The position numbers and the translations under genes were made by a program. Below the pieces are notes generated by a model, which saw only the letters and a list, made by a program, of their open reading frames with translations, had not been told where the DNA came from and ran no database searches. A stretch of DNA of 64,000 bases from Lachnospiraceae bacterium (lineage in GTDB: Bacteria > Bacillota > Clostridia > Lachnospirales > Lachnospiraceae), in the NCBI GenBank assembly GCA_017617545.1, contig JAFZVZ010000017.1, positions 124,001 to 188,000 on the forward strand, written 5' to 3'. Positions 1 to 64,000 of this stretch are shown one piece after another. Positions within the stretch are counted from its first letter, which is position 1, and every line of letters starts with the position of its first letter.

Positions 1-3000
1 GGTGGTATTACTGTGGAAGTTTCTCCTGCGGAAGGTGGTACAGTAGAACTTGCGGCACATTCGATGTTGGGTATTTATTTTTTTTCTGCTGTTCCCAATG
101 AGGATTATGTTTTTGTGGGTTGGACAGTAAGTAATGGTTCTGTGGTGGAATACTTCGATGCTGAAACAAATCCTTTACCATGGTCCAATAGTTCAGTTAC
201 TATTACCGCGCGTTTTCAAAAGAAGTATATCATTTATAATGCGCTTACTAATTCCGAAAAAGGCAGACTGGAAGCAACAGCTTCTCAAAGCGGTGATTCT
301 TTTCTCCCCGGAACGCAGATCTCACTTAAAGCAATACCGAACAACGGATACAGAGTAGTAAGAATTCAGTATGCATTAGATAATGGTGCTGACTATTTCT
401 CTGATTTAGAGTGGATTACTCTTTCGGAAACTGACACTGCAACATTTACGATGCCTGAAAATGATGTTTGGGTCTGGGCTGAGTTTTATTCGACTTCGCC
501 TCATACGCTTACATTGAATAGTGTTGGCGAAGGAACAATTACTTATAACGGTAAAACGTCCGCTCAGGTTTATGCCGGCGAAAGTGTAACACTTACAGTT
601 ACCCCTAAAAACAAAGGGTATCAATTACAGTCGCTTTCCGGTGTTACTGCGAATTATGACGCGTCTACGCATACATTTATAATGCCTGACCGAGATGTGA
701 ATATTTCTGGCGAATTTATATGGGCTCCGCCTTATTCTGTTCATGCTATTGTGAATGATGCAACATTAGGACAGATAGCTTCCGGTGTCGATCAAGAAAC
801 GTTTACTTATGTTTTCGGAGCAGTACCTAATAACAAAACCGTATATATGGATGGCTGGTATGATGGAAAAACAGGCAAACAGATAACCAAAGAGGCGATT
901 TATACCATTTCCCCCGAATCGGATATTGATATTGAATGTAGGTTTATTCAAGGATATATAGTCGAGTTGGCTTCCAATATAAAGAACGGAAGTCTGGAAT
1001 ACACTCCTTACAGATCTCTGGACACACAATATCCTGAAAATACATGTTATAAACCGGGTGAGACAATAAAACTATTGGGAACTCCTGACGAAGGTTATCT
1101 GCTTGAAGGTTACTATTATGCATATCTTTATATTAATGATAATGGTACCATGACCCATGGTGAGACAATAAGACTTGATGGCGATACACTCACCATGGAC
1201 CATAGCTATGTAATACTTGCAAATTTTGTAAAGGCATACGATGTTTCTGTTTCATCAGACGATACAAATGCAGGAACCGTAGTAGGAAACGGTCAGTATG
1301 CTATTGATGATTATGCTCAGGTAACAGCAACTGCCCAAACGGGATATGAGTTTGTTGCATGGACGGACACAAGCGGAAACACGGTAAGTACAGAAGCAAG
1401 TTATAGATTCAAAGTAACAGGTAACACAACGCTTATTGCTAAATTCCGTCGGGTATACACGGTTACTGTCGGTATTGACTCTTTTTCCTTTGATGGTACA
1501 GATGCAACACTTACAGGTGCCGGAACGTATCACTACAGAGATACTGTTACTGTTAAGGCAATCCCCGCAGATGGAAGTGGAGTGCTCTGCTGGTATAACA
1601 CGAAAAATAATACACTTGTAAGTGAAAAACCGGAATATACGTTTACCATTTATGAGGATACCGCATTAGAAGTAATGTTATGGAAGGTCGTAACGATTAA
1701 CGTTGCTTCGTGCAATGAATCATATGGCACTGTTTCTGGAGGCGGAAAATATTTTTATGGTAATCCTTTTACCATTACGGCACAACCGAAGAAAAACTGT
1801 GAATTCGTAAAATGGGTAGACAGCAGCGGAAATACAATAAGCACTTCCGAAAGTTTTTCTTCTTACTCAGATTACGTGCTGGAAAATGAAACGTTTACTG
1901 CAATTTTTCAGGTTAAACCCGGAACCGTGAATTTTGTATCGAATGGTCAGAGCCTGAATACAATTACTGCATCTTCAATTACTGCGAGTGATTTTCCTGA
2001 AGATCCGGTATCGTCGGACGGTTATGAATTTACCGGATGGGATAAGACACTTACGGAGATCAACAATGTCCTCGCGTCCGGAGACACCATTACGGTAACT
2101 GCACAGTGGAAGGATACCGTAATGTTCCTCCCGACAATCAACATGGCGGACTATACAGGTATTTTCATATATGTACATATTCCGGATGGCGAGGATGCTT
2201 CTAAGTATACAGTAGAGACGACTCCGCATAATTCGGTTCTGACTGCCATCGGACCGAAAAATAAGGTCCTCAGTAAGTTGCCTTCGAAGAACAGAACGGT
2301 CGGTGAAAGAGATGTATTATGCTACCGTATTGATGCAACTCATCTGGCATCCAGTGAACTGACGGATACCGTCGACGTCGTTCTTAAAAAGAACGGTGTA
2401 GTTGTTAAATCGGCAACCTATTCTGTCGCAAGCATAGCTGCGGAAAGAATTGCTTCCGGTACGTTAGACGAGGTAGCTGTACGTCTGCATAAAGTGTTGA
2501 TTCAATATGGTTACTATGCTCAGATTCAGTTCCAGCACAATCTGGATAAGTTGCCTACATTGTTTCCTGAGACGCCGACATTGACAGAGATTCCTGAAGC
2601 GTATGCACCTAACGGAGACCCGACTGATTTCAGCAACTATATTACAGCATTTGAATCAAAAGTCGACTGTTCGGAAGCGGTTTCCATTAATATCTATCTG
2701 ACACCTGCAGCAGGATACAAGCGCAAAGATTTTGTAATCTCAGTGATAGACAAGGATGGTAATGAATACACGAATTTTACCGACCCGATTTCTACGAAGG
2801 GAAAAATATATTTCAAGATCAATGGCATCGCTTCGAACAAGTTAGATAGTGAATTCCAAATCGTAGTGAAGCTGAAGAACAATCCGAACGTGTCAGCAAC
2901 CTGGACAAGGTCAGTGCTCACGGCCGCGTATGAGATCTATCAGATAGCAAATGCCGCAGAAAAAGAAGAGACGAAGAACATGGTAATGGCATTGTATCAA

Positions 3001-3048
3001 TATTTCCAGTCATCGAGAGATCAGTTCTCTCCGGTTCCTGCAAACTAG
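1..3048 (+). CDS. Secreted/surface protein with tandem InlB-B-type repeats (5' end missing)
   Basis: The frame is open from the first base, so the N-terminus, including any signal peptide, lies outside the window; at least 1015 residues are present. About eight divergent modules of 70-90 residues run through the first ~630 residues, each with small beta-strand blocks and a G-Y-x-F/V-x-x-W core (for example GYEFVAWTD) and ending in a short A-x-F segment. They match the divergent InlB B-repeat / bacterial repeat family. A ninth module (near residues 640-705, ending TAQWKD) is closer to the Listeria-Bacteroides repeat. The last ~310 residues form a different domain that I do not recognise. There is no LPxTG-like signal or C-terminal hydrophobic anchor (it ends SPVPAN), so it is not an obvious sortase substrate. 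It is visibly more A+T-rich than the genes that follow. Likely exported and involved in surface or adhesive functions; this is inference. Confidence 0.75.
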   Translation, partial: GGITVEVSPAEGGTVELAAHSMLGIYFFSAVPNEDYVFVGWTVSNGSVVEYFDAETNPLPWSNSSVTITARFQKKYIIYNALTNSEKGRLEATASQSGDSFLPGTQISLKAIPNNGYRVVRIQYALDNGADYFSDLEWITLSETDTATFTMPENDVWVWAEFYSTSPHTLTLNSVGEGTITYNGKTSAQVYAGESVTLTVTPKNKGYQLQSLSGVTANYDASTHTFIMPDRDVNISGEFIWAPPYSVHAIVNDATLGQIASGVDQETFTYVFGAVPNNKTVYMDGWYDGKTGKQITKEAIYTISPESDIDIECRFIQGYIVELASNIKNGSLEYTPYRSLDTQYPENTCYKPGETIKLLGTPDEGYLLEGYYYAYLYINDNGTMTHGETIRLDGDTLTMDHSYVILANFVKAYDVSVSSDDTNAGTVVGNGQYAIDDYAQVTATAQTGYEFVAWTDTSGNTVSTEASYRFKVTGNTTLIAKFRRVYTVTVGIDSFSFDGTDATLTGAGTYHYRDTVTVKAIPADGSGVLCWYNTKNNTLVSEKPEYTFTIYEDTALEVMLWKVVTINVASCNESYGTVSGGGKYFYGNPFTITAQPKKNCEFVKWVDSSGNTISTSESFSSYSDYVLENETFTAIFQVKPGTVNFVSNGQSLNTITASSITASDFPEDPVSSDGYEFTGWDKTLTEINNVLASGDTITVTAQWKDTVMFLPTINMADYTGIFIYVHIPDGEDASKYTVETTPHNSVLTAIGPKNKVLSKLPSKNRTVGERDVLCYRIDATHLASSELTDTVDVVLKKNGVVVKSATYSVASIAAERIASGTLDEVAVRLHKVLIQYGYYAQIQFQHNLDKLPTLFPETPTLTEIPEAYAPNGDPTDFSNYITAFESKVDCSEAVSINIYLTPAAGYKRKDFVISVIDKDGNEYTNFTDPISTKGKIYFKINGIASNKLDSEFQIVVKLKNNPNVSATWTRSVLTAAYEIYQIANAAEKEETKNMVMALYQYFQSSRDQFSPVPAN

Positions 3049-3104
3049 ATTGGAAGAATTTAATATTTCGACAGTATAATAATAACAAGTAAGTAAGAAA
3101 CAAA

Positions 3105-3137
3105 GAAGGAGCTGTACTTTCAAAGTACAGCTCCTTC
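3105..3137 (-). terminator. Terminator of the ABC-F gene
   Basis: Perfect 16-bp inverted repeat (3105-3120 with 3122-3137) starting directly after the ABC-F stop codon. Read on the minus strand it is followed by a T-rich tract (3104 downward). The plus-strand side has only a short T stretch, so it may also weakly terminate the repeat-protein gene. Confidence 0.85.
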
Positions 3138-3138
3138 T

Positions 3139-5113: not shown

Positions 5114-5142
5114 ACTATACTATGATTATGCGGAAAATGCAA
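5114..5142 (-). promoter_or_regulatory. Putative promoter of the ABC-F gene
   Basis: On the minus strand TTGCAT (5142-5137), a 17-base spacer and TATAGT (5119-5114). The octamer ATTTTCCG (5138-5131) overlaps the end of the -35 box. The -10 box ends only 7 bases before the ATG at 5106 and no Shine-Dalgarno is visible, so the transcript could be leaderless. Confidence 0.5.
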
Positions 5143-5253: not shown

Positions 5254-6837
5254 ATGGCTCTTGTAACCGATCGAATTCTTATTGCCGGTCAGATCCGGAA
5301 TGCTGAATGGGGCCTGATCAACAATGATATCGTCTCCAACGAAGAGTTGATCGAGACGGCGGCCGGCGCTGTTGCAATGACAGTCGTTGCGATCGGAGAA
5401 AAACTTAAGGTTGCCGCTTTGGTCGGACCCGGCAATAATGGTGCGGATGCGTTGGCTGCGTCGCGAATGCTTGCCGCTCAGGGATACACGGTTGATGTGT
5501 GGGAGAAACCTATGCCTTTCAATGCATTGTCCCCGCAGAGAGTAAAGCTGGTCGAATCCGGGTTGCCGGTTTCCATCGGTTCAATGTATGAGACAATCGA
5601 GTGGGCTTCTTACGATGTTGTTATGGACGGTCTCTTCGGGATCGGGATCAACCGGGAGATTACCGAAGAAGATTCAAAAGTTATAGACTCCCTGAACAGA
5701 GCACACGAAGCCTCGGATCACTTAACGGTGATCGCAATCGATATCCCTTCCGGTGTTAACGCGGATAACGGCCTTTTGTTCGGAAATGCAGTACAAGCGG
5801 ATATGACAGTGACATTTTCCGCGATAAAGCCCGGATTGATCCTGTATCCGGGAAGAGCGTATGCGGGTGAGGTCATTATAGCTGATGCAGGTGTTTTGGA
5901 GGATGCTCTGCCGGAAAGCGAATTCATAAGGCTTACGTGCGTGCCTGAACTGCCGGAGCGTGATCCCGCGGGGCACAAGGGGACGTTCGGACGCATATTG
6001 ATCGTGGCGGGAAGTGATACCGGCCCCGGAGCAGCGCTGCTTGCAACGAAGGCATGTTACCGAAGCGGCGCGGGACTTTGCAAGCTTGTTACGCCGGAAG
6101 CGATCCTTCCTGAGGTACTTCACACCGTGCCGGAGGCAGTGTTTTGCGGAAGAAAACGCTTCCTGGAGAATCCCGCTGAGGAGATGAAAGGCTGCTCCGT
6201 CATCCTGATCGGTCCCGGCCTCGGAACGGATGCGGAAGCAGAGAGACTTTTGGACAGCGTTTTGGCTGTCGCGGAGGAGTGGAACAATCCGGAGGATCTG
6301 AAGCATGTGATCGTTTTGGATGCGGATGCTCTCAATATCATATCCAAACGACTTACGGGTACAACGCCGCAGAAAAGAATGCGCGAACTGCGAAGATTGT
6401 TGCCGAAGAACTGTATTTATACACCACACATTGCGGAACTGGGACGACTTCTAGACATCAATGTGTCTGACATTCCGAGAAGAAGGCTTGATATCGCAAA
6501 AATGTGGAATTATGAGACGGATCATGTATTGATCATGAAAGACGCGTGTACGCTTGTCGTCGGGGAAGGAACCGTATGGTTCAATGAAACCGGCAACGAC
6601 GGCATGGGAACCGCGGGAAGCGGCGATGTATTGGCGGGTATCACTGCGGCACTTGCCATGGAATGCCTGCACGGCACGATGAGCCTTTCGGAGTGTGCCG
6701 CTGCAGCAGTTGCGGTACACGGTACCGCAGGCGATCTCGCGGCGGCAGATATAGGACGCAGAAGCCTGATGGCAGGAGACCTTGTAAGGTACCTTCCGAA
6801 GGCATATGGCGCACCGTGCGCTGCGGAAGAGGAATAG
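5254..6837 (+). CDS. nnr: Bifunctional NAD(P)H-hydrate epimerase / ADP-dependent dehydratase
   Basis: A 527-residue fusion that repairs hydrated NAD(P)H. The N-terminal YjeF_N epimerase domain (about 1-215) interconverts the R and S hydrates and shows the GPGNNGADAL motif and an aspartate in VVMDGLFGIG. The C-terminal ribokinase-like NnrD domain (about 220-527) dehydrates the S form using ADP and carries GPGLGTD and the ADP-binding loop GMGTAGSGDVLAG. Length is normal for the fused form. The ATG follows AAGGAG at a good distance and a consensus promoter. The next gene begins 33 bases downstream, suggesting co-transcription. Confidence 0.93.
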   Translation: MALVTDRILIAGQIRNAEWGLINNDIVSNEELIETAAGAVAMTVVAIGEKLKVAALVGPGNNGADALAASRMLAAQGYTVDVWEKPMPFNALSPQRVKLVESGLPVSIGSMYETIEWASYDVVMDGLFGIGINREITEEDSKVIDSLNRAHEASDHLTVIAIDIPSGVNADNGLLFGNAVQADMTVTFSAIKPGLILYPGRAYAGEVIIADAGVLEDALPESEFIRLTCVPELPERDPAGHKGTFGRILIVAGSDTGPGAALLATKACYRSGAGLCKLVTPEAILPEVLHTVPEAVFCGRKRFLENPAEEMKGCSVILIGPGLGTDAEAERLLDSVLAVAEEWNNPEDLKHVIVLDADALNIISKRLTGTTPQKRMRELRRLLPKNCIYTPHIAELGRLLDINVSDIPRRRLDIAKMWNYETDHVLIMKDACTLVVGEGTVWFNETGNDGMGTAGSGDVLAGITAALAMECLHGTMSLSECAAAAVAVHGTAGDLAAADIGRRSLMAGDLVRYLPKAYGAPCAAEEE

Positions 6838-6870: not shown

Positions 6871-7749
6871 ATGGGGGAACCCGGCAAACGCGGCCTCGCC
6901 GGACTGCTTCGCAGCTGGTGGGGTAAGAAAAATGAAGAGGATTACGACGAAGAACTGATGTCTCTGGTCAACGACTACAAGGACCAGGGCGCGATCGAGG
7001 AAGATGAGGCGGAGATGATCTCCAACATCATGGAATTTTCCGAGACGCAGGCCAAAGATATCATGACCAACCGGACGAAGATCGAGGCATTTTCCGTAGA
7101 TGACACTCTTGAGGACGTGATCCACAGCATGCTGCATTCGAATTTCTCAAGATACCCTCTCTATGAGGAAAACCTTGACAACATCGTCGGCATTCTGTAC
7201 TTAAAGGACGTTATCCTGGAGTTCCTCGAAGGCGACAAGAACGCGCCGCTTAAGAAAGTTGCAAGGGAGCCGTTCAATGTTCCCGAGACGATGCCGATCG
7301 ATGCTTTGTTCGGCGAGATGCAGTCGAAGAAGATCCACATGGCGATCGTCATCGATGAGTACGGTCAGACGGCCGGCATTGTTGCGATGGAGGATATCCT
7401 TGAGGAGATCGTCGGTGACATCCTTGATGAGTACGACGAGGAGGATGAGGAAGCGACACGTTCGGGCGATGAGCTGATCGTGAGCGGGAGCATCCCCGTG
7501 GAGGAACTCAAGGAACTGATCGATATTGAATTTTCCGAGGAGGACGAGGAAAATTTCGAGACGCTGAACGGTATTTTAGTCGCGCGTCTTGGGCACATAC
7601 CCGAGGACGGGGAGAACGGCGAGATCCGTTACGGGGACTGGATTTTCCGTATACTGAACTGTGAAAACCGCAGGATCGAGAGCGTTGCTGTGAAGAAGGC
7701 TGATGATGAGGACGCGACCGAGAACAGTACGGAAACGGACGAACAGTAA
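6871..7749 (+). CDS. CBS-domain protein with CorC/HlyC domain (hemolysin C family)
   Basis: About 292 residues. The order is a short basic N-terminus, an acidic linker, a pair of CBS motifs (about 60-185, including the FSRYPLYEE and IDEYGQTAGIV blocks typical of the family) and a transporter-associated CorC_HlyC domain (about 205-280). The N-terminal DUF21/CNNM membrane domain of larger relatives is absent, so it resembles the soluble CorC form. Relatives are linked to Mg/Co efflux; the name hemolysin is historical. The ATG at 6871 follows an AAAGGAACGG stretch; the frame extends to a TTG at 6847, which I consider less likely. A very acidic patch (DEYDEEDEE) links the CBS pair to the C-terminal domain. 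Confidence 0.85.
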   Translation: MGEPGKRGLAGLLRSWWGKKNEEDYDEELMSLVNDYKDQGAIEEDEAEMISNIMEFSETQAKDIMTNRTKIEAFSVDDTLEDVIHSMLHSNFSRYPLYEENLDNIVGILYLKDVILEFLEGDKNAPLKKVAREPFNVPETMPIDALFGEMQSKKIHMAIVIDEYGQTAGIVAMEDILEEIVGDILDEYDEEDEEATRSGDELIVSGSIPVEELKELIDIEFSEEDEENFETLNGILVARLGHIPEDGENGEIRYGDWIFRILNCENRRIESVAVKKADDEDATENSTETDEQ

Positions 7750-8290: not shown

Positions 8291-9064
8291 ATGAGGTTTC
8301 GACCGTGTATTGACATTCACAACGGCAAGGTCAAGCAGATCGTTGGGGGAAGCCTGCAGGACACCGGGAATAAGGCTGATGAGAACTACGTGTCCGAGCG
8401 TCCCGCGTCGTACTATGCCGGTCTTTACCGCGATGACGGACTTACCGGCGGACATGTGATCCTGCTGAACAAGAAGGACAGCCCGTATTACGAGGCGACA
8501 CTTGCTCAGGGCCTGGATGCTCTTGCGGCATATCCGGGCGGGCTGCAGATCGGCGGAGGCATTACGGCGAAAAATGCGTCCCTGTTCCTCGAGAAGGGCG
8601 CGTCCCATGTCATTGTGACCACCTACCTGTTCCACGAGGGAGAATTTTCCGTGGAACGGTTGTTCAAGCTTGCCGATACCGTCGGCAAAGAGCACATCGT
8701 CATAGACCTCAGCTGCCGCAGACAGTTTGACAATTACACCGTGGTCACAGATCGCTGGCAGCATTTTACGAAGCTTGCCGTGACACCGGATCTTCTGAAG
8801 ATGCTAGAACCGTTCTGCGCGGAGTTTTTGATCCACGGCGTGGATTCGGAGGGCAAGAGAAACGGCATGGAGGAGGACCTCGTGGCCATGCTTGCGGATT
8901 ACGACGGAAATCCCGTAACGTACGCGGGAGGGATCCACAGTAAGAAAGCAATCGAGCTGTTCCGCGAGGTGAGCAAGGGAAAGCTCGATTTTACGGTGGG
9001 AAGCGCGCTTGATCTGTTCGGGGGAAAATTGTCATATCAAGAGTTGGCGCGTGTTGCGAAATAA
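8291..9064 (+). CDS. hisA: Eukaryotic-type ProFAR isomerase (HisA/HIS6 type)
   Basis: 257 residues. It catalyses the Amadori-type isomerisation of ProFAR to PRFAR in histidine synthesis. The sequence follows the fungal/plant HIS6 pattern rather than the usual bacterial HisA. Blocks include PCIDIHNGKVKQIVGGSL at the start, an SYYA..YRDD region, GGGI, IDLSCRR, EFLIHGVDSEG and VTYAGGI, and the end TVGSALDLFGG. A (beta-alpha)8 barrel is expected, with the early aspartate (D8 region) as a catalytic candidate. It stands alone among rlmH and unrelated genes, not in a his operon. RBS AAAAGGAGA precedes the ATG. The assignment rests on remembered family motifs. Confidence 0.87.
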   Translation: MRFRPCIDIHNGKVKQIVGGSLQDTGNKADENYVSERPASYYAGLYRDDGLTGGHVILLNKKDSPYYEATLAQGLDALAAYPGGLQIGGGITAKNASLFLEKGASHVIVTTYLFHEGEFSVERLFKLADTVGKEHIVIDLSCRRQFDNYTVVTDRWQHFTKLAVTPDLLKMLEPFCAEFLIHGVDSEGKRNGMEEDLVAMLADYDGNPVTYAGGIHSKKAIELFREVSKGKLDFTVGSALDLFGGKLSYQELARVAK

Positions 9065-9112: not shown

Positions 9113-10189
9113 GTGGGATCAGTAATCGGAATCATTATTTTCTTTGCGATTCTGTCATCGGTACTGAAACGAACCGGGGCGCGCGATCATATGAGGGAAC
9201 GTAACATCAGCATCGGAAAGATCATCGGTCTTATCGCACTTTCCGCATGCGGACTGTTACCGTTCTTCCTGATCATCTGGGCAATTAACGCGAGTTCAAA
9301 ATCCGATAAGAATACAAACGGGCAGGTAAATCGAAACATGTATACGAACGGAATGCCAAACGCATACCGCAGCGCGGACAATATCGGCGGAACCTCAGGG
9401 ACTTCGCCGTACGGTTCGACTGTAAATAATTACCGCACGAACGGTATGAGCCCGAATGGCGCAACGAATTATTCCCGTCCCGGCGGGTACAATCCGGCGC
9501 AGCCCGGCGCATACTATACCGGCTACGTGACACGGCCGGCTGCGGGTACAACGTCGCCTTCCTATCAGGACCAGGCGCGCAACATGACGAACGCGTACAA
9601 CAACGCGATCAACTATTCCGGAATTTACAATAATCAGAAGCCGAACTCCTACGGACTTCCGTCCGCGGAGAAGAAGCGTACGAAGATCGTCAAGAAGTTC
9701 AGCGAAAAATACAATCTCTTCCTCACCGACCGTGAGATCAAACGCATCGTCGATGCCTCGTATCTCTCGTCCGGATGGGCTCGTGAGATCTGTTATATGA
9801 ACCAGAAGTACGACACCGTGTACGCGTGGTATGCGTCCATGAACCCCTGGTTGAAGGTTTACCTGTACGCGTTCCAGCAGCAGAACATCTCTTCGGATTT
9901 CGCGATGCAGGAGAGAATCGTGTACGACGCGTTCAACACCGTATTTTCCGATGTGTGCAGCGACGGCGATCTCACGATCGACCAGGCGATCCGCCGCATC
10001 AATGAGAAGTACCTGACGAACTTCGACGAGACGACGTTCATGATCGCTTACCGCTACATGGAATCGAAGGGCAAGAAGTATTCCTTCGCGTTCAGCCAGG
10101 TGTTGAATACGCAGGAGGACATCGACGAGCTTCTGAGCAAGTACGAGGGCGCCGAGGGTGGCACACCGATGGGAACGCCGATGCAGTAA
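9113..10189 (+). CDS. Unknown membrane-anchored protein with N/G/Y/P-rich linker
   Basis: About 358 residues; I do not recognise a family. The start is placed at the GTG at 9113 because GGAGG (9103-9107) sits 5 bases upstream; the same frame could start at TTG 9101. Two hydrophobic helices occupy roughly residues 3-20 and 38-62. They are followed by a low-complexity linker rich in Asn, Gly, Tyr, Thr and Pro (about 65-185) and a helical, charged C-terminal domain (about 190-340, beginning KKRTKIVKKFSEKY) ending in a Gly/Thr/Met tail. A membrane anchor with a flexible linker carrying a soluble domain is the simplest reading. It has its own promoter and lies upstream of serS. No catalytic motif is visible. 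Confidence 0.7.
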   Translation: MGSVIGIIIFFAILSSVLKRTGARDHMRERNISIGKIIGLIALSACGLLPFFLIIWAINASSKSDKNTNGQVNRNMYTNGMPNAYRSADNIGGTSGTSPYGSTVNNYRTNGMSPNGATNYSRPGGYNPAQPGAYYTGYVTRPAAGTTSPSYQDQARNMTNAYNNAINYSGIYNNQKPNSYGLPSAEKKRTKIVKKFSEKYNLFLTDREIKRIVDASYLSSGWAREICYMNQKYDTVYAWYASMNPWLKVYLYAFQQQNISSDFAMQERIVYDAFNTVFSDVCSDGDLTIDQAIRRINEKYLTNFDETTFMIAYRYMESKGKKYSFAFSQVLNTQEDIDELLSKYEGAEGGTPMGTPMQ

Positions 10190-10255: not shown

Positions 10256-11536
10256 ATGCTTGATCTTAAGTTTGTACGGGAGAATCCCGAGATCGTAAAG
10301 CAGAATATTCGCAACAAGTTCCAGGACCAGAAGCTTCCTCTTGTTGACGAGGTGATCGAGCTTGACGCGAAGAGCCGCGCCGCTAAGCAGGAGGCAGATG
10401 ACCTTCGTAACAAGCGAAACACCATCAGCAAGCAGATCGGAGGTCTGATGGCGAAGGGCCAGCGCGAGGAGGCCGAGGCACTCAAGAAGCAGGTGACGGA
10501 ATTTTCCGAGCATCTCGCAGAGCTTGAGGCGCAGGAGACGGAGCTCTCGGAGGAGATCCGCAAGCGCATGATGGTCATCCCGAACATCATCGACGCGTCG
10601 GTGCCGATCGGTAAGGATGATTCTGAAAATGTGGAGCTCGAGCGGTTCGGAGATCCCGTCGTTCCGGATTTCGAGATCCCGTATCATACGGATATTATGG
10701 AGCGTCTGAACGGTATCGACCTTGACGCAGCGAGAAAGGTTGCCGGCAACGGTTTCTACTATCTGAAGGGCGACATCGCGCGCCTGCACAGCGCTGTATT
10801 GTCGTACGCGCGTGATTTCATGATCGGCCGCGGTTTCACGTACTATGTACCGCCGTTTATGATCCGCAGCGACGTTGTGACCGGTGTCATGAGCTTCGCT
10901 GAGATGGACAGCATGATGTACAAGATCGAGGGTGAGGACCTGTACCTGATCGGTACGAGCGAGCACTCGATGATCGGCAGCTTTATCGATACGATCCTTC
11001 AGGAGGATGATCTGCCGTATACGCTGACGAGCTATTCCCCTTGCTTCCGCAAGGAGAAGGGCGCTCACGGTATCGAGGAACGAGGTGTGTATCGTATCCA
11101 TCAGTTTGAGAAGCAGGAGATGATCGTTGTCTGCAAGCCTGAGGACAGCATGAAGTGGTACGATAAGCTGTGGCAGAATACGGTTGATTTCTTCCGCACC
11201 CTTGATATTCCCGTACGTACGCTTGAGTGCTGCTCGGGTGACCTGGCAGACCTTAAGGTTAAGAGCTGTGACGTAGAGGCATGGTCTCCTCGTCAGAAGA
11301 AGTATTTCGAGGTCGGCAGCTGCTCGAACCTCGGAGATGCGCAGGCAAGACGCCTGAAGATCCGTGTAAACGGAGAGAACGGCAACAAGTATTTTGCGCA
11401 TACATTGAATAACACCGTGGTCGCGCCTCCGCGTATGCTGATCGCGTTCCTTGAGAACAATCTGCAGGAGGACGGTTCCATTCGCATCCCTGTGGCTTTG
11501 CGGCCTTACATGGGCGGACAGGAGACGATCCGGTAA
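10256..11536 (+). CDS. serS: Seryl-tRNA synthetase
   Basis: 426 residues. Charges tRNA-Ser (and tRNA-Sec) with serine using ATP. The N-terminal coiled-coil arm that recognises the long variable arm covers about 25-110 and is highly charged. The class II catalytic core follows: motif 2 FRKEKGAHGIEERGVYRIHQF, followed by the PEDS segment, and motif 3 near the end (LNNTVVAPPRMLIAFLEN). Length is normal. ATG after GAAAGAAGG. Followed by a hairpin terminator, so it is probably monocistronic. A tRNA-Ser gene lies elsewhere in the window. Confidence 0.97.
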   Translation: MLDLKFVRENPEIVKQNIRNKFQDQKLPLVDEVIELDAKSRAAKQEADDLRNKRNTISKQIGGLMAKGQREEAEALKKQVTEFSEHLAELEAQETELSEEIRKRMMVIPNIIDASVPIGKDDSENVELERFGDPVVPDFEIPYHTDIMERLNGIDLDAARKVAGNGFYYLKGDIARLHSAVLSYARDFMIGRGFTYYVPPFMIRSDVVTGVMSFAEMDSMMYKIEGEDLYLIGTSEHSMIGSFIDTILQEDDLPYTLTSYSPCFRKEKGAHGIEERGVYRIHQFEKQEMIVVCKPEDSMKWYDKLWQNTVDFFRTLDIPVRTLECCSGDLADLKVKSCDVEAWSPRQKKYFEVGSCSNLGDAQARRLKIRVNGENGNKYFAHTLNNTVVAPPRMLIAFLENNLQEDGSIRIPVALRPYMGGQETIR

Positions 11537-13946: not shown

Positions 13947-14654
13947 TTATTTCTCTAACTCTTTGTCGGTTCTCGGATCGATGATCTTGACAGCATCAGC
14001 GACACGACCGTACTGACCGCAAGCCTTCTCGTAAGCGGTGTTAGGATCGTCACCCTTCTTGATGAAGTCGGTCATCTTGCCGAGAGATACGAACTTGTAA
14101 CCGATAATCTGGTTGTCAGCGTCAAGTGCGATACCGGTTACATAGCCCTCAGCCATCTCAAGATAGCGGGGACCCTTCTTCAGAGTACCGTACATCGTAC
14201 CGACCTGGGAACGGAGACCCTTGCCGAGGTCCTCAAGACCTGCGCCGACCGGAAGACCGTCCTCGGAAAATGCGCTCTGCGAACGGCCGTAAACAATCTG
14301 AAGGAACAGCTCGCGCATAGCGGTGTTGATAGCGTCACATACGAGGTCCGTATTCAGAGCCTCGAGTACAGTAAGACCGGGAAGAATCTCCGAAGCCATA
14401 GCTGCGGAGTGGGTCATACCCGAGCAGCCGATGGTCTCAACCAATGCTTCCTGGATGATACCTTCCTTGATGTTCAGAGAGAGCTTGCAGGCACCCTGCT
14501 GAGGTGCGCACCAGCCGACACCGTGGGTGAAACCGGAGATGTCCTTGACTTCCTTCGCCTGAACCCACTTGGCTTCCTCAGGAATCGGAGCACAGCCGTG
14601 ATGCACGCCCTGTGCAACGGTACACATGTTTTCTACTTCGTGAGAATAAATCAT
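13947..14654 (-). CDS. NifU/IscU-like iron-sulfur scaffold-type protein
   Basis: About 235 residues. The region GWCAPQQGACKLSLNIKEG followed by ETIGCSGMTHSAAMASEI aligns by pattern with the first two cysteine sites of IscU/NifU (C-x-x-x-L-x-I and GC-x(5)-AS). The third canonical cysteine (the K-C-S-x-L-x-x region) is not seen: the corresponding stretch reads SQSAFSEDGLP. Extra cysteines occur near the N-terminus (CTVAQGVHHGC). The start is placed at the ATG at 14654 because AAGGAG precedes it; the open frame is longer without an RBS. Paired with the GGGtGRT gene. A scaffold role is inferred from the fold; cluster binding would need different ligands. Confidence 0.82.
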   Translation of the reverse strand: MIYSHEVENMCTVAQGVHHGCAPIPEEAKWVQAKEVKDISGFTHGVGWCAPQQGACKLSLNIKEGIIQEALVETIGCSGMTHSAAMASEILPGLTVLEALNTDLVCDAINTAMRELFLQIVYGRSQSAFSEDGLPVGAGLEDLGKGLRSQVGTMYGTLKKGPRYLEMAEGYVTGIALDADNQIIGYKFVSLGKMTDFIKKGDDPNTAYEKACGQYGRVADAVKIIDPRTDKELEK

Positions 14655-14705: not shown

Positions 14706-14734
14706 ACCATATTGCTTCGGAAAATACTACACAA
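14706..14734 (-). promoter_or_regulatory. Putative promoter of the scaffold/GGGtGRT operon
   Basis: Minus strand: TTGTGT (14734-14729), 17-base spacer containing ATTTTCCG (14725-14718), TATGGT (14711-14706). An overlapping extended -10 reading, TGGTACAAT, ends at 14701. Confidence 0.45.
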
Positions 14735-14832
14735 AAAACACGACAAAGCATTGAATTTTCCGTGAAAATCAGTGCAGAACAGTCCGCAAAACACGATATA
14801 TAGAAAAATGCAGTGGAATCATACGCGGTTTT

Positions 14833-21381: not shown

Positions 21382-21410
21382 ATTATACTTGATACTTCGG
21401 AAAATGGCAA
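21382..21410 (-). promoter_or_regulatory. Promoter of the activase-dehydratase gene
   Basis: Minus strand: TTGCCA (21410-21405), 17-base spacer, TATAAT (21387-21382). The octamer ATTTTCCG (21405-21398) starts on the last base of the -35 box. The leader to the ATG is about 90 bases. Confidence 0.7.
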
Positions 21411-21471: not shown

Positions 21472-21536
21472 GTTACGGGCGAAGAGGAGAGCATTTTCCG
21501 AGGAAAACGACTCGACGACGCCGTAACGGAGGAAGC

Positions 21537-41076: not shown

Positions 41077-41111
41077 CGTATTCATAACGACCGTGTACTG
41101 TTATGAATACG
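41077..41111 (+). repeat. 12-bp inverted repeat between argB and argD
   Basis: CGTATTCATAAC (41077-41088) and GTTATGAATACG (41100-41111), 11-base loop, perfect pairing. There is no T tract, so it is not an ordinary terminator. Could be an mRNA stability/processing hairpin or an operator; CGGAAAAT (41110-41117) overlaps the right arm. Confidence 0.75.
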
Positions 41112-41146
41112 GAAAATAATGAGAGACGCAGATCGGAGGAACACTT

Positions 41147-42382: not shown

Positions 42383-42420
42383 AAAGCACGGAATTTGTTG
42401 CATTTTCCGTGCTTTTTCTT
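42383..42420 (+). terminator. argD terminator built from the octamer
   Basis: AAAGCACGGAA (42383-42393) pairs with TTCCGTGCTTT (42405-42415), 11-base loop, followed by TTCTT. The right arm overlaps an ATTTTCCG octamer (42402-42409). Confidence 0.85.
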
Positions 42421-42421
42421 G

Positions 42422-42450
42422 TTGTCTAAGCAGCATTTTTCGGATATAAT
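42422..42450 (+). promoter_or_regulatory. comEA promoter
   Basis: TTGTCT (42422-42427), 17-base spacer, TATAAT (42445-42450), directly after the argD terminator and about 40 bases before comEA. Confidence 0.7.
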
Positions 42451-42490
42451 GAAACTGCTGTGTGGAGCGCGTCGGAAAGGACTGTTGCTT

Positions 42491-51874: not shown

Positions 51875-53692
51875 ATGGCAAACACTGACCAGAGTAAAAT
51901 CAGAAATTTCTGCATTATCGCACACATCGACCACGGCAAATCAACGCTGGCGGACCGGATCATCGAGAAAACCGGTCTGCTTACGCAGCGTGAAATGCAG
52001 GAACAGGTGCTTGACAATATGGATCTTGAGCGGGAGAGAGGCATCACGATCAAGGCACAGACGATCCGTACCGTATACAAGGCCAAGGACGGCGAGGAGT
52101 ATATATTCAACCTGATCGATACTCCCGGCCACGTGGACTTTAACTATGAGGTTTCGAGATCGCTGGCTGCCTGCGAAGGCGCGATCCTCGTTGTTGACGC
52201 GGCGCAGGGCATTGAGGCCCAGACGCTTGCCAACGTTTATCTTGCTCTTGATCATAACCTTGAGATCATGCCTGTCATCAACAAGATCGACCTTCCGAGC
52301 GCAGAGCCGGAGCGCGTGATCCATGAGATTGAGGATGTGATCGGCCTTGAGGCACAGGATGCTCCGTTGATCTCCGCAAAGATGGGAATCAACATTGAGG
52401 AGGTTCTCGAGCAGATCACAACGAAGATCCCTGCTCCCAAGGGTGACCCGAACGGTCCTCTTCAGGCGTTGATCTTTGATTCCGTGTACGATTCCTACAA
52501 AGGTGTTATCATTTTCTGCCGGATCAAAGAAGGCACGATCCGCAAGGATATGCGAATTCGAATGATGGCAACAGGCGCTGAGGCGGATATCGTCGAGATC
52601 GGTACGCTCGGTCCCGGAAAATTCATCCCCTGCGATGAGCTTTCCGCAGGAATGGTTGGATATATCACCGCGAGCCTTAAGAATGTGAAGGAAACCCGTG
52701 TCGGCGACACCGTTACCGACGCAAACCGTCCCGCGGAGCAGGCGCTTCCGGGTTACAAGAAGGTCAACCCGATGGTGTACTGCGGAATGTATCCCGCGGA
52801 CGGCGCAAAATATCCCGATCTCCGCGATGCTTTGGAGAAGCTTCAGCTGAACGACGCGTCTCTTCAGTTTGAGCCGGAGACCTCGATCGCTCTCGGATTT
52901 GGCTTCCGCTGCGGTTTCTTGGGTTTGCTTCATCTTGAGATCATCCAGGAGAGACTGGAGCGTGAGTACAACCTCGACCTCGTGACAACGGCGCCGAGTG
53001 TTATCTATAAAGTATATAAGACGGACGGTACCGTTCTCGATATCAGCAACCCTGCCAACCTTCCGGATCCTTCGGAGATCGATCATATGGAGGAGCCGTT
53101 TGTGAAGGCGGAGATCATGGTCACGACAGAATTTGTCGGCGCGATCATGAAGCTTTGCCAGGACCGCCGCGGTATCTATCTCGGAATGGAGTACCTCGAA
53201 CAGACGCGCGCGCTTCTCAAGTATGACCTGCCGCTCAACGAGATCATTTACGATTTCTTCGACGCTCTCAAGTCGCGCTCGAAGGGATACGCCTCGTTTG
53301 ACTATGAGTTCAAGGAATATGTTCCCTCGAAGCTCGCGAAGCTGGATATCCTCGTCAACCACGAGGAAGTCGACGCTCTGTCCTTCATCGTCCATGAGGC
53401 AACCGCCTACGAGCGCGGACGCCGCATGTGCGAGAAGCTGAAGGAGGAGATCCCGAGACAGCTCTTCGAGATCCCGATCCAGGCCGCGGTCGGAAGCAAG
53501 ATCATCGCCCGTGAGACCGTTCGCGCGATGCGCAAGGACGTGCTTGCCAAGTGCTACGGCGGTGATATCACGCGTAAGAAGAAGCTTCTCGAGAAGCAGA
53601 AGGAAGGCAAGAAGCGCATGCGCCAGGTCGGTAACGTAGAGATCCCGCAGTCAGCGTTCATGAGCGTGCTGAAACTTGATGACGATGGTTGA
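51875..53692 (+). CDS. lepA: Elongation factor 4 (LepA GTPase)
   Basis: 605 residues. GTPase that acts on stalled or back-translocated ribosomes. G motifs AHIDHGKST (P loop), GITIKAQT (switch I), DTPGHVDF (switch II) and NKIDLP (NKxD) are intact; [15 protein letters not shown] and the C-terminal LepA-specific domain (ending [16 protein letters not shown]) identify it. Length exactly typical. ATG after AGAAGGAAAC. Followed by a 10-bp hairpin and hemW. Confidence 0.97.
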
Positions 53693-53748: not shown

Positions 53749-54864
53749 ATGGAACTGTACATTCACATTCCGTTTTGCGTGAGAAAATGTAACTACTGCG
53801 ATTTTCTTTCCTTCGCCGGCAAGGAAAACTGCTTTGCAAAATATGGTGAAGCTCTTATTCGCGATGTCTGCAGTCACGGTGAGTTGGTTCTTAAGGATAC
53901 GACAGTGACTTCGGTCTTTATCGGCGGAGGTACGCCTTCGCTGATGCCGGAAGGATTTTACGAAACGCTTCTTTCTGAGATCAAGAAAAGCTTCATAGTA
54001 CAGCAGGATGCCGAGATTTCCATCGAATGCAACCCCGGAACGGTGACGGAAAGAAAGCTTACGGAGTACCGCAACGCCGGGATCGACCGGATCAGTTTCG
54101 GAACACAGTCGGCCGATGACAAAGAGCTGCGAATGCTCGGAAGGATCCACACGTGGAAGGATTGCGTGGAATCATTTGCTATGGCACGCATGGCAGGGTT
54201 TGACAACATCAACCTTGATCTGATGATGAACCTTCCCGGACAGACGAAGGAGACATTTTCCGAAACTCTTAAGAAAGCGATTGCACTTTCCCCTGAACAT
54301 ATCTCGGCATACAGCCTGATCCTCGAGGAGGGCACACCGTTCTACGAGCGCTATGCGGAGCATCCGGAGCTTCTTCCGAGTGACGAAGCAGCTGCCGAAA
54401 CGTATGAAACTGCTGTTCAAATACTTGCGGATGCAGGATACTTACAGTATGAGATCTCGAACTTCGCAAAATCAGGACGTGAGTGCAGGCACAACGTCGG
54501 ATACTGGAAGCGGGAAGAGTATCTTGGAATTGGGATCGGCGCGGCAAGCCTGATCGGAGACTGCAGGTACCGCGTTGAAGCAGATCTTGCGAAATACTTG
54601 GACGGTCTTTCTTATGAACCTACAGAAGAACTTACCGACAAAGACCTGAGAAATGAGACGATCATGCTCGGGCTTCGCATGAACGAAGGGGTGAGCATGT
54701 ACGATCTGACGGAGCGGTTCGGCAGCGTGTATGCGCATTCATTTTCCGACAAAATGAAACGGTACGTTGCACAGGAACTTGCGTATGAGAAGGACGGACG
54801 ATACGGATTGACAGTCCGCGGAATGTTAGTCAGCAACATGATCATCGCTGACCTTATGGAGTAG
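53749..54864 (+). CDS. hemW: HemW-type radical SAM heme chaperone
   Basis: About 371 residues; related to oxygen-independent coproporphyrinogen oxidase. The radical SAM cluster CxxxCxxC is at Cys10, Cys14 and Cys17 (FCVRKCNYCDF), with GGGTPS at about 60. The HemW-type C-terminal domain follows. Lacks the extra N-terminal cysteine/Arg features of true HemN as far as I can tell, but this is not decisive. ATG 53749 after GAAGGTG; the longer frame in the lepA end has no RBS. Often adjacent to lepA and hrcA in Firmicutes. Confidence 0.9.
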   Translation: MELYIHIPFCVRKCNYCDFLSFAGKENCFAKYGEALIRDVCSHGELVLKDTTVTSVFIGGGTPSLMPEGFYETLLSEIKKSFIVQQDAEISIECNPGTVTERKLTEYRNAGIDRISFGTQSADDKELRMLGRIHTWKDCVESFAMARMAGFDNINLDLMMNLPGQTKETFSETLKKAIALSPEHISAYSLILEEGTPFYERYAEHPELLPSDEAAAETYETAVQILADAGYLQYEISNFAKSGRECRHNVGYWKREEYLGIGIGAASLIGDCRYRVEADLAKYLDGLSYEPTEELTDKDLRNETIMLGLRMNEGVSMYDLTERFGSVYAHSFSDKMKRYVAQELAYEKDGRYGLTVRGMLVSNMIIADLME

Positions 54865-60126: not shown

Positions 60127-61134
60127 ATGAAATGGACAGTCTTTACAATTACAACAACGGTGGACGCCGAGGATTACGTGTGTGCCGCGCTCGCAGAGCT
60201 CGGCTACGACGGCGTTGAGATCATCGACAACATGCCTCTCAGCAAGGAGGATGTTGCCGCGCAGTTTATCGACATACCGCTTGTCACGGACGAGAGCGAC
60301 CGTACCTCGAAGATCCGCTGCTATGCTGAGATCGATGAAGATAGTTCATCGGAAAATGACACGGAAAGCAGGATCGCCGAGATCCGCGATGCGATCGAAA
60401 TCTACCGCGATATCGTGCCGCTCGGAGACCTTGCGATCGAGACAACAGTGACGGAAGACCTCGACTGGATCAATAACTGGAAGCAGTATTTTCATTCGTT
60501 CCGGATCGGCGAGGACATCCTGATCAAACCGACCTGGGAGGAGAACACGGAAGTCCGTGAGGGTGATCTCGTGATCGAGATCGATCCCGGCACAGCGTTC
60601 GGCACAGGTTCCCATGAGACAACATGGCTCTGTATCGAGGCGATCCGCGCTCATGTCAAGGAAGGCGACGTCGTGCTCGACATCGGCTGCGGAAGCGGAA
60701 TTCTCGCGATCATCGCGAAGAAGCTCGGCGCGGGAAGCTGCATCGGTATCGATATTGACCCGATCGCCGTGGATGTCGCTAAGGAAAATGCGGAGCAGAA
60801 CAACCTGACGGTAGTTGAACCGGAGAACCCCGAGATCGTAGACGGAGCAGTATCCTTCTACGCGGGCGATGTCATTACGGACCGTGAGTTTGCAGCTTCC
60901 TGTGTACTTACAAAGTATCCTGTCGTAGTTGCCAATATTCTTGCCGATGTGATCAAGCCGATGATGCCTGTCGTAAAGGATTTTCTGGCGGATGGCGGCT
61001 GCTTCATCACTTCGGGAATTCTTCGCGAGCGCGAAGAGGAAATGGTTGCTGAGTTTGAACGAAACGGTTACCGCGTAACCGAGCGCAGATATAAGAACGA
61101 CTGGGTCAGCCTCACCGCAGAGCTTGCCCGGTAA
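60127..61134 (+). CDS. prmA: Ribosomal protein L11 methyltransferase
   Basis: 335 residues. Trimethylates L11 lysines. The S-adenosylmethionine site GTAFGTGSHETTWL and VLDIGCGSGILAIIAKKLGA (about 180-205) and the NILADVI (NPPx-like) block are all present. Slightly longer than E. coli PrmA (293) through an acidic insertion (about 65-90: DEDSSSENDTE). GAGGTAG lies upstream. Commonly next to dnaJ and rsmE in Firmicutes. Confidence 0.94.
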   Translation: MKWTVFTITTTVDAEDYVCAALAELGYDGVEIIDNMPLSKEDVAAQFIDIPLVTDESDRTSKIRCYAEIDEDSSSENDTESRIAEIRDAIEIYRDIVPLGDLAIETTVTEDLDWINNWKQYFHSFRIGEDILIKPTWEENTEVREGDLVIEIDPGTAFGTGSHETTWLCIEAIRAHVKEGDVVLDIGCGSGILAIIAKKLGAGSCIGIDIDPIAVDVAKENAEQNNLTVVEPENPEIVDGAVSFYAGDVITDREFAASCVLTKYPVVVANILADVIKPMMPVVKDFLADGGCFITSGILREREEEMVAEFERNGYRVTERRYKNDWVSLTAELAR

Positions 61135-61154: not shown

Positions 61155-61916
61155 ATGCCAAGGTTTTTTGTAAGCCCCGAGAGTGTGAACGGCGATACGA
61201 TCACCGTGACCGAGGGCGATTACAATCACATACGCAACGTGCTTCGGATGCACATCGGTGAATCGATCACGGTCTGCGACGGACAGGGCGCGGATTACCG
61301 GTGCGAGATCGCTGAGTACACCGACGGATCGTGCCTTCTCGCGATCAAGGAGCGCATTCCCTCCACAGTGGAGCTTGCCATCGAGATCACGTTGTACCAG
61401 GGTCTTCCGAAGAAGGATAAGATGGAGCTGATCATCCAGAAGGCTGTGGAACTCGGCGCCGCAAGGATCATGCCGGTTCTGTGCGAACGGACGATCGTGA
61501 AGCTTGAGGACCCGAAGAAGGAACAGCGAAAAATGGAGCGTCTTCGCGCGATCTCCGAAAGCGCCGCCAAACAGAGCGGACGAGGGATCCTGCCCGAGAT
61601 CGCTGACCCGAAGAAGTTTGCGGACGCGATCAAAGACGCTAAGGACAGAGGATGCGTCATCCTTGTTCCGTACGAGAATGCTTTAGGCATGAAAGCGACT
61701 GCGGAAGCATTTTCCGAAGGAATGAAAGCGGAGAAGATTGCGGTGTTCATCGGTCCGGAGGGCGGCTTTTCCCGCGAGGAGATTGCCGTTGCCGAGCAGA
61801 ACGGAGCACGCATCATAAGCCTCGGCAGACGCATATTGCGGACGGAAACCGCAGGTATCGCTGTGCTTTCGGCACTGATGCTCATGGCCGAGGAGAACAG
61901 CGAACTTCAGGAATAA
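61155..61916 (+). CDS. rsmE: 16S rRNA (uracil1498-N3)-methyltransferase
   Basis: 253 residues, SPOUT class. N-terminal PUA-like domain begins MPRFFVSPES; the C-terminal knot contains GPEGGFSREEIAVAEQNG and RILRTETAGIAVLSALM. Methylates U1498 in helix 44 of the small subunit. GGAAGGAACC precedes the ATG, 20 bases after prmA. Confidence 0.95.
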   Translation: MPRFFVSPESVNGDTITVTEGDYNHIRNVLRMHIGESITVCDGQGADYRCEIAEYTDGSCLLAIKERIPSTVELAIEITLYQGLPKKDKMELIIQKAVELGAARIMPVLCERTIVKLEDPKKEQRKMERLRAISESAAKQSGRGILPEIADPKKFADAIKDAKDRGCVILVPYENALGMKATAEAFSEGMKAEKIAVFIGPEGGFSREEIAVAEQNGARIISLGRRILRTETAGIAVLSALMLMAEENSELQE

Positions 61917-61949: not shown

Positions 61950-63158
61950 ATGACTGACAAGGATCAGAAGATGCAGGAGATATACCTTGACAATGCCGCA
62001 ACAACGCGCGTATTGCCTTCCACGGCTGCGTATGTCGCGGATATCATGTGTAATTCGTACGGAAATCCTTCCTCTTTGCATCACAAGGGCTTTGAGGCGG
62101 AGCAGCTGATCAAGACAGCTACGCGCAACATCGCTGACAGTTTGAAGGTAGCTGAGGACACGATCGTATTTACGTCCGGCGGCACGGAATCGAACAATAT
62201 GGCACTGTTGTGCGGCGCGGAAGCGAGAAAACGCCGAGGAAACCATATTATTACCACAAGAATTGAACATGCGTCGGTATACCAGCCGATCCTCAGGCTC
62301 GAAGAGCTCGGATATAGGGTGACGTTTCTTCCTGTGGACAACAACGGTATCGTTCATCCCAACACGCTTCGCGAGGCACTCACGGACGACACGATCCTTG
62401 TTTCGATCATGGCTGTCAACAACGAGATTGGAGCCGTAGAGCCGATCTCGGAGCTTGCGGATATCGTTCATAAGCATAATCCCGACACGTTATTTCACAC
62501 GGACGCGATCCAGGCGTACGGAAAGATCCCAATCTTCCCAAAACGCATGGGCATCGATCTTATGTCAGTGAGCGGTCATAAGCTGCACGCGCCCAAGGGT
62601 ACCGGCTTTTTGTATGTACGCGAGAAGCTTGCGCTTCATCCCCTGATCTACGGAGGCGGGCAGCAGAAGGACAGGCGCTCCGGTACGGAAAATGTACCGG
62701 GCATCGCGGGTCTTGGGTTCGCCGTAAAAGAATGGTTCGCTCACGCAGATGAGTACCGCAGCCGCATGTATTCATTAAAAGAGCGTTTTGTAAGCGCAAT
62801 GAGCGAGGTTTCCGGTGCAACCGTGAACGGAGTATTTTCCGAAGAAACCGGTTCGTTACACGAGAATATATGGAAAACGGCACCGCACATCGTTAGCGTG
62901 AGTTTCCAGGGCGTTCGAAGCGAAGTATTGCTTCACACGCTGGAAGAGAAGGGCATCTATGTTTCCTCCGGTTCGGCGTGCTCGTCCAATCATCCGGCGA
63001 TCAGCGGAACGCTCAAGGCGATCGGCGTAAAGGAGAACCTTCTCGATTCGACGCTTCGTTTCAGCTTCTCTGAGGAGACAACAGAAGAGGAGATCGAAGC
63101 AACGGCGGGTGTTCTGAAAGAAGTAGTACCGGTTCTCAGCCGCTACAGAAGAAGTTAG
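61950..63158 (+). CDS. Cysteine desulfurase (NifS/IscS family)
   Basis: 402 residues, PLP enzyme that mobilises sulfur from cysteine. It begins with IYLDNAATTRV, the PLP lysine is near K211 (SVSGHKLHAPKG) and the active-site cysteine near C344 in SSGSACSSNHP. Directly upstream of thiI, which uses persulfide sulfur, so tRNA thiolation and thiamine sulfur are the likely destination. CGGAG precedes the ATG. Confidence 0.92.
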   Translation: MTDKDQKMQEIYLDNAATTRVLPSTAAYVADIMCNSYGNPSSLHHKGFEAEQLIKTATRNIADSLKVAEDTIVFTSGGTESNNMALLCGAEARKRRGNHIITTRIEHASVYQPILRLEELGYRVTFLPVDNNGIVHPNTLREALTDDTILVSIMAVNNEIGAVEPISELADIVHKHNPDTLFHTDAIQAYGKIPIFPKRMGIDLMSVSGHKLHAPKGTGFLYVREKLALHPLIYGGGQQKDRRSGTENVPGIAGLGFAVKEWFAHADEYRSRMYSLKERFVSAMSEVSGATVNGVFSEETGSLHENIWKTAPHIVSVSFQGVRSEVLLHTLEEKGIYVSSGSACSSNHPAISGTLKAIGVKENLLDSTLRFSFSEETTEEEIEATAGVLKEVVPVLSRYRRS

Positions 63159-63189
63159 AAAACGCATTATATAGTATGTTATATAAATA

Positions 63190-63218
63190 TTGATATGAAT
63201 TTTACGAAATAATATTCA
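63190..63218 (+). promoter_or_regulatory. Putative thiI promoter with ATTTTACG in the spacer
   Basis: TTGATA (63190-63195), 17-base spacer, TATTCA (63213-63218). The ATTTTACG octamer (63199-63206) lies in the spacer. About 35 bases before thiI. Confidence 0.45.
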
Positions 63219-63251
63219 AAATTACAGCAAAATACATTTATGAGGTTAGCT

Positions 63252-64000
63252 ATGTATCAGGCTTTTTTGATCAAATACGCAGAGATCGGATTGAAAGGAA
63301 ATAACCGTTCCTATTTCGAGGATTGTCTCGTAAAGCAGATCCGATACAGTCTGCGACTTGTCGGCGACAGTTATCAGGTGCGCAAGGAACCCGGCCGCAT
63401 CTTCATCGAATGTCCGGAAGGATACGATTACGATGACACGGTTGAGGCGATCTCGCGCGTGTTCGGTGTCGCAGAGTATTGTCCCGTCGAGATCTGCAAG
63501 AGCACGGAATGGGAAGATATCCTTGAGGCTTGCAAGTCGTATGTCGAGCGCAATGTGACGGACCGCAATACAACGTTTAAGGTATTCTGTAAGAGAGGCG
63601 ACAAGAATTATCCGAAGGAATCGCCGGAAATCTGCGCGGATGTCGGAGAATACCTGTTGCAGTGCTTCCCTGAGCTCAAGGTCGATGTTGTCAACCCGAA
63701 GCTTCGCTTTACGGTGGAAGTGCGCGGACGTGTTTACATTTATACGGACAGCTATCCGGGTCCCGGCGGCATGCCTGTAGGCTGCAACGGCAAGGCGATG
63801 TTGCTTCTCTCGGGTGGTATTGACAGCCCTGTCGCGGGATATATGATCTCCAAGAGAGGCGTATACATCGACGCGACGTATTTTCACGCGCCGCCGTACA
63901 CGAGCGAGAGAGCTCTGCAGAAGGTGATCGATCTTGCGCGCATCATTTCGAAATACACCGGCCCGATCCATCTGAATATCGTGAATTTTACGGAGATCCA
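63252..64000 (+). CDS. thiI: tRNA 4-thiouridine/thiamine sulfurtransferase ThiI (3' end missing)
   Basis: The frame from ATG 63252 is open to the window end; about 249 residues are visible of a usual ~390-480. Starts MYQAFLIKYAEIGLKGNNR, a THUMP domain covers about 60-165, and the PP-loop ATPase motif LLLSGGIDSPVAGYM lies near 185. ThiI uses ATP and a persulfide to make 4-thiouridine at tRNA position 8. GAGGTTAGC precedes the ATG. Follows the cysteine desulfurase, its usual sulfur donor. Confidence 0.94.
   Translation, partial: MYQAFLIKYAEIGLKGNNRSYFEDCLVKQIRYSLRLVGDSYQVRKEPGRIFIECPEGYDYDDTVEAISRVFGVAEYCPVEICKSTEWEDILEACKSYVERNVTDRNTTFKVFCKRGDKNYPKESPEICADVGEYLLQCFPELKVDVVNPKLRFTVEVRGRVYIYTDSYPGPGGMPVGCNGKAMLLLSGGIDSPVAGYMISKRGVYIDATYFHAPPYTSERALQKVIDLARIISKYTGPIHLNIVNFTEI

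Follow-up and report, generated by a model that had tools for sequence, protein, structure and literature searches.

A stretch of 64,000 nucleotides (hereafter the window) from the 2.73 Mb, 45-contig genome of a Lachnospiraceae bacterium (G000) raises the question of why a single octamer, ATTTTCCG, should recur dozens of times on both strands, inside genes and between them. That the word is a genome-wide signal at the level of the DNA, as the original prediction proposed, is strongly supported by counts against codon and Markov null models, and the observation behind that proposal is correct and understated: across the whole genome the word occurs 1,797 times, in 928 cases on the forward strand and in 869 on the reverse (658 per Mb in all), and the control, ATTTTCCG read backwards, occurs 17 times. 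Four explanations had been offered, namely a DNA uptake signal, a Chi or segregation signal, a methylation target and a HIP1-like repeat (after the highly iterated palindrome of cyanobacteria). The first fits best on the sequence evidence at hand, and we see an even chance that ATTTTCCG serves as a species-group self tag recognised in DNA uptake, evolved separately in one Lachnospiraceae genus.

All 48 copies listed for the window were recovered (31 forward and 17 reverse, the reverse copy placed at 44111 beginning in fact at 44110), and the quoted chance expectation of about two agrees with our zero-order value of 1.8. Forty copies are genic and eight non-coding under the corrected gene set described below, fewer than the 11 or so first thought to be intergenic. 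The genic exact matches on the forward strand lie at 5814..5821, 7035..7042, 7089..7096, 7530..7537, 7642..7649, 8644..8651, 9943..9950, 10501..10508, 19863..19870, 21493..21500, 21773..21780, 27913..27920, 30575..30582, 33403..33410, 33756..33763, 34580..34587, 37291..37298, 38610..38617, 38965..38972, 49160..49167, 54255..54262, 54741..54748, 61709..61716 and 62834..62841, with four more inside two genes whose presumed identity is confirmed by domain matches: comEA, a candidate part of an uptake machine (42395..43159, forward; SLBB and HHH_3 domains), contains copies at 42402..42409 and 43072..43079, and comEC, a candidate DNA channel (46294..48540, forward; Competence and metallo-beta-lactamase domains), contains copies at 46350..46357 and 47571..47578. 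On the reverse strand the genic copies are at 1743..1750, 5131..5138, 14264..14271, 22102..22109, 24333..24340, 27377..27384, 35028..35035, 37470..37477, 44110..44117, 52615..52622, 60350..60357 and 62686..62693. The non-coding copies comprise two inverted pairs, 14718..14725 (reverse) with 14755..14762 (forward) and 26754..26761 (reverse) with 26793..26800 (forward), together with 21398..21405, 28301..28308 and 41110..41117 on the reverse strand and 31491..31498 on the forward strand. The related word ATTTTACG is present as noted before, at 20 copies and not the 17 or so reported; G is indeed preferred at position 8, the words formed by ATTTTCC followed by A, C or T numbering 27 where about 24 had been given.

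Beyond the whole-genome counts, the sequence was analysed over 1.17 Mb and later over 1.50 Mb (55%) of the genome, as draft contigs. A first-pass gene set lacked comEA and comEC, among other genes, which contaminated its "intergenic" counts; the main genic and non-coding figures rest on a corrected set (the first pass plus 106 open reading frames), and pair location, flank profile and sense and antisense counts rest on first-pass genes. Codon bias had been held insufficient to explain the excess, and it is ruled out as the cause by two kinds of shuffle. When synonymous codons are exchanged within each gene, which keeps every protein and its codon use, 81.2 genic copies are expected (standard deviation 8.5, maximum 96, 30 shuffles) as opposed to the 752 present in 1.50 Mb with corrected genes; with first-pass genes over 1.17 Mb the figures are 55 (standard deviation 7.3, maximum 72, 60 shuffles) and 577. 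Nor does the excess disappear under the kind of shuffle that the original prediction had named as able to overturn it: with genome-wide codon use and the two bases on either side of each exchanged codon preserved, 133 copies are expected (standard deviation 11.8, maximum 153, 12 shuffles) and 585 are present in 1.17 Mb, and this stricter null is conservative because it retains part of the signal itself. ATTTTCCG is the octamer with the highest z against the within-gene shuffle and the second under the strict null, behind CATTTTCC, its own one-base shift. The excess likewise extends, as it should for a genome-wide signal, to non-coding DNA, with 233 copies against 11.3 or 24.5 under order-1 and order-2 Markov models (20 simulations each), to 332 kb of the genome outside the earlier data (135 against 15 expected) and to a second species of the genus, G011, with 66 against 9.2 in 140 kb.

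The letters of the word are unevenly constrained, as seen when its single-letter alternatives in G000 are set relative to the strict null. At positions 1 to 4 the alternatives reach only 0.5 to 2.1 times the null; position 5 tolerates G (5.1 times, as opposed to 2.3 for A and 1.0 for C), position 6 tolerates any base (3.9 to 7.6 times), position 7 requires C (alternatives 1.0 to 2.3 times), and the bases other than G at position 8 are tolerated at 4.1 to 5.7 times. The anatomy is similar in G011, where counts are small and the deviations are C at position 8 (6 against 4.0) and T at position 7 (13 against 4.4). The base directly 5' of the word is a C in 50% of the genic copies and in 69% of those that the first pass placed between genes, and downstream of the latter A is favoured at +9, +10, +12, +13 and +16, with no A-rich trend seen upstream of these copies. 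The resulting consensus, C-ATTT-[T/g]-[C/A/T/g]-C-[G>n] with an A-rich downstream side, resembles in the latter respect the tracts flanking the uptake signal sequences (USS) of Pasteurellaceae. A strict core combined with soft positions is the profile that one would expect of a recognised site, to judge from counts as distinct from binding.

Copies are spread evenly and without polarity. The distances between copies come close to a Poisson process (mean 1,379 bp, coefficient of variation 1.02), and 59 pieces of up to 20 kb hold 13.2 copies on average with a variance of 15.0 (three low pieces having 3, 5 and 6), so that regional clustering is slight, a slow gradient being able to escape this test given that the contigs are unordered. 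The longest copy-free stretch in the part analysed, 12.8 kb at G000:C31:30903-43745, carries genes that look glycolytic by eye and possibly owes its emptiness to codon constraint. Mobile islands do not seem to account for the copy-poor regions: in the five longest of the listed gaps the genes resemble, by eye, those for housekeeping, transport or surface proteins, and the genome has one PF00589 match. Density is about three times higher in non-coding than in genic DNA (1.59 as opposed to 0.56 per kb with corrected genes).

At short range the copies tend to be inverted relative to each other. There are 53 pairs closer than 60 bp where 32 are expected, 48 of them inverted, as are 56 of the 84 pairs at 60 to 300 bp; the 48 close inverted pairs divide into 22 genic, 22 intergenic and 4 mixed, both inverted arrangements occur, and the spacing within pairs is not fixed. 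When all 22 congeneric genomes are pooled, 288 CGGAAAAT..ATTTTCCG pairs and 80 same-orientation pairs lie 1 to 30 bases apart, where random orientation predicts 1:2 (241 and 63 in the ten copy-rich genomes, 47 and 17 in the other twelve), with none inverted and one same-orientation pair in each of G006, G015 and G017. Hairpin-templated copying may be guessed at as the source of this pairing. A 14-bp palindrome formed by two overlapping inverted words, ATTTTCCGGAAAAT, was also seen five times in 1.17 Mb of G000 (C11:39663 and single places on C6, C16, C23 and C26); it may resemble the Noc-binding site.

These distributions bear directly on two explanations. Chi sites regulate the recombination nuclease AddAB or RecBCD; they work in a single orientation and show a bias to the leading strand. 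With strands assigned by GC skew in 20-kb pieces, ATTTTCCG occurs 502 times on the G-rich and 469 times on the C-rich strand (p = 0.30), which argues against such a role, and relative to genes 362 copies are sense and 358 antisense. To our knowledge neither non-coding enrichment nor inverted pairing is a trait of Chi. Chi sites are certainly one of the known classes of dense, over-represented words, alongside uptake tags and HIP-type repeats (PMC4390886); the likeness ends at strand polarity, and we regard a Chi-like site as very unlikely. Segregation signals of the KOPS or matS type are made less likely by the absent polarity and the even counts per 20 kb, so that the Chi or segregation proposal as a whole is disfavoured. 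Alternatively, the word might be a by-product of context-dependent mutation bias or composition and be recognised by nothing at all. Such a process would leave its mark on coding and non-coding sequence alike, whatever the orientation, and other words, e.g. CGGAAAGC, are indeed mildly enriched in congeners; yet the excess survives the null that preserves codons and junction trinucleotides, near-exact letters are required at positions 1 to 4 and 7, and inverted pairing would be unexpected, leaving this account extremely improbable. Polypurine and polypyrimidine octamers, for their part, are common to most bacteria (PMC2843746).

How far the signal extends was assessed across 22 genomes, one per species of the genus (sizes rounded). 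Ten species carry 480 to 707 copies per Mb and twelve carry 135 to 307. In six of the latter twelve (G004, G007, G013, G015, G016 and G018) a second word, ATTTGCCG, outnumbers ATTTTCCG, as with 909 against 767 in G007 and 712 against 451 in G013, and G008 is near parity (619 and 623). The divergent congener G006 (L077 and L092-L096; 120 kb, a small sample) holds 42 genic copies of GCTTTTGC against 8.9 expected, possibly a word of its own, and a likewise small sample of G017 (32 kb) gave no clear related word. In G004 (L075 and L097-L101; 120 kb) we also observed 14 copies of AGTACCAC within 18 kb that the first pass left as intergenic, with neighbouring words that include TTTTAGTA; this is perhaps an interspersed repeat.

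For the wider family, counts of the 10-mer CATTTTCCGA cover 250 genomes of 249 genera, two of the genomes belonging to this genus. It occurs 454 times in G000 and 174 times in G002; the maxima among the other 248 genera are 125 (G118), 89 (G134) and 59 (G253), with at least 50 copies seen in none of the rest. These three may possibly carry related signals outside the genus (the G118 and G134 pieces, of 13 and 5.7 kb, being too short to be informative), and several copy-poor congeners have fewer copies than G118, hence signal and genus do not coincide exactly. Of 15 other genera sampled, four (G026, G029, G030 and G032) gave no usable result, and the remaining 11 yielded no octamer above z 5.1 in samples of 1.4 to 20 kb, a scan of low power: at similar length the word is not ranked first even in the copy-rich G011 and G005.

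Where G000 sites could be aligned with orthologous positions, 39 of 80 are retained in copy-rich species and named near relatives as opposed to 133 of 454 flanking octamers (p = 0.001, an optimistic value given that the same G000 site can count against several relatives); in copy-poor relatives the corresponding figures are 8 of 57 and 35 of 319 (p = 0.50). Word use also follows similarity of ComEA to that of G000 over 21 species (rho 0.70 for copy density and 0.78 for the T-word share), a correlation that phylogeny alone may account for.

A dense word that changes between relatives recalls the HIP words of cyanobacteria, octamers found in and between genes, replaced by other words in some strains and paired with matching methylases (PMC4390886), and ATTTTCCG might analogously be a methylation-linked repeat, made or kept by a repair system coupled to a methylase. 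G000 does carry a full-length PF01555 domain. However, among the ten copy-rich species near-complete PF01555 domains were found only in G000, G011 and G005; G020 has a C-terminal piece, and in G002, G009, G014, G019, G003 and G010 all matches are short or fall below the cutoff (G003 and G010 being less complete). In this comparison, which covered the PF01555 family only, a shared methylase of that family is disfavoured as the explanation, ATTTTCCG being tied to no single one, and the idea of a methylation target is weakened. As to a HIP1-like repeat, the abundance without a known role stands and the palindrome does not: HIP1 is a GC-rich palindrome with cognate methylases, whereas the complement of ATTTTCCG is CGGAAAAT, and HIPs reach 1,000 to 2,000 per Mb as opposed to 658 (PMC4390886). 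We consider this explanation quite unlikely.

An uptake tag, by comparison, predicts a strict core with soft positions, occurrence on both strands, permissive location and inverted pairs, as well as turnover combined with retention of sites, words that differ between relatives, and genes for the machinery. What was found includes the top over-represented word, a strict core with tolerant positions (by counts), spread over both strands, non-coding enrichment and, though it does not discriminate, pilus and Com machinery. A plausible course of events would begin with a DNA-binding type IV pilus subunit, or ComEA, preferring DNA that carries the word; the pilus would pull such DNA in, ComEC would pass one strand, and DprA and RecA would recombine it into the chromosome. 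Fragments with the word being taken up more often, alleles that bear it would gain ground through biased gene conversion, and copies would accumulate wherever the sequence tolerates them. Both the machinery recognising the word and the uptake bias building it up are parts that we infer.

The candidate components can be named. On contig C7 of G000 a type IV pilus locus encodes PilB-, PilT- and PilC-like proteins, a prepilin peptidase-like protein and PilM/PilN-like proteins (names outside the Pfam scan being assigned by eye), with five N_methyl pilins by Pfam as receptor candidates, and the locus recurs in G006, G009 and G011 to the extent that the stretches analysed cover it. A T2SSE ATPase of some kind occurs in all 46 genomes examined from the genus, family and order, DprA in 42 of these 46, G000 included, and ComEA in all 22 genomes of the genus. 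A T2SSE (PilT-like) match at G012:C126:30015-30848 contains two internal stop codons and may be broken or misassembled. A DNA-binding pilus has reportedly been described in Streptococcus pneumoniae. In Clostridioides difficile the pilins PilJ and PilW bind DNA, in a species without competence in vitro (PMC9556784).

The closest parallel among known systems is with the DNA uptake sequences (DUS) of Neisseriaceae, short non-palindromic words numbering some two to three thousand per genome, with a strict short core, permissive or intergenic location, inverted pairs (at terminators) and variant words in relatives, forming eight dialects, with 2,245 to 3,603 copies in the genomes cited (PMC3630211). 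Pilus and Com genes are encoded in both cases. Unlike DUS, the present word has another sequence, belongs to another phylum and numbers 1,797 exact copies in G000; no ComP relative was identified, and in several congeners two words occur about equally often. The USS of Pasteurellaceae, of about nine bases and hundreds to thousands of copies (PMC5031613), offers a similar likeness and differs in its unrelated sequence and lineage. Our literature search, which took in no preprints and few subscription papers, found no report of ATTTTCCG and no uptake tag in Lachnospiraceae, Clostridia or Firmicutes; PMC13020248 and PMC3388099, in the excerpts available, are not reports of either.

Several observations weigh against an uptake tag. 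Genes for the machinery are widespread in the order, genomes without the signal included, and therefore do not discriminate; the congeners G006 and G017 have pilus ATPases yet few copies of the word, and the copy-rich G009 (95% completeness) gave no DprA match. Close pairs in G007 are not mainly inverted (3 inverted as opposed to 6 same-orientation). Retention and related words would suit whatever protein recognises ATTTTCCG. For this genus no data on uptake or transformation came to light and no receptor was identified, the five N_methyl pilins being candidates only. Finally, the sources consulted name two families with such tags: in the parts available, a 2016 review describes sequence-tagged uptake in Pasteurellaceae and Neisseriaceae (PMC5031613), and a 2026 search of terminators in thousands of genomes reports uptake words from these same two families (PMC13020248).

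A repair or nucleoid signal is a possible alternative to an uptake tag. In particular, the word could be bound by a protein that is associated with the nucleoid, organises the chromosome or serves replication, and that requires a site roughly every 1.5 kb. The even, strand-neutral, near-Poisson spread, the sharp profile of tolerated letters and the retention of sites beyond that of their flanks would all fit such a protein, and inverted close pairs would suit a dimer. On the other hand, spacing within pairs is not fixed, the favoured word varies within one genus, seemingly quickly for an essential chromosomal site, and we know of no nucleoid protein with such a site. We deem this explanation fairly unlikely; yet the pattern expected of a chromosomal binding protein is in large part the one seen, and the uptake tag is therefore put at one half.

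Should ATTTTCCG be an uptake tag, it would point to frequent natural transformation in a gut lineage represented here mostly by metagenome-assembled genomes, provide a culture-free genomic sign of competence and add a new case for studying how tags originate and diverge. The broader proposal, that this is a third independent origin of sequence-tagged uptake and, to judge by the sources consulted, the first in Firmicutes, with word divergence acting as a partial barrier to exchange between congeners, we place somewhat short of an even chance. If the reader were another protein, the density of the word would still mark a genome-wide DNA-protein system, undescribed in the literature searched and concentrated in one genus.

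Two minor features of the window may be recorded. GATC-containing words (TGATCG, CGATCG and others) occur at about four times their zero-order expectation across it, and the open reading frame at 13-3048 contains six stretches resembling InlB B-repeats (Flg_new_2) and likely encodes a surface protein.

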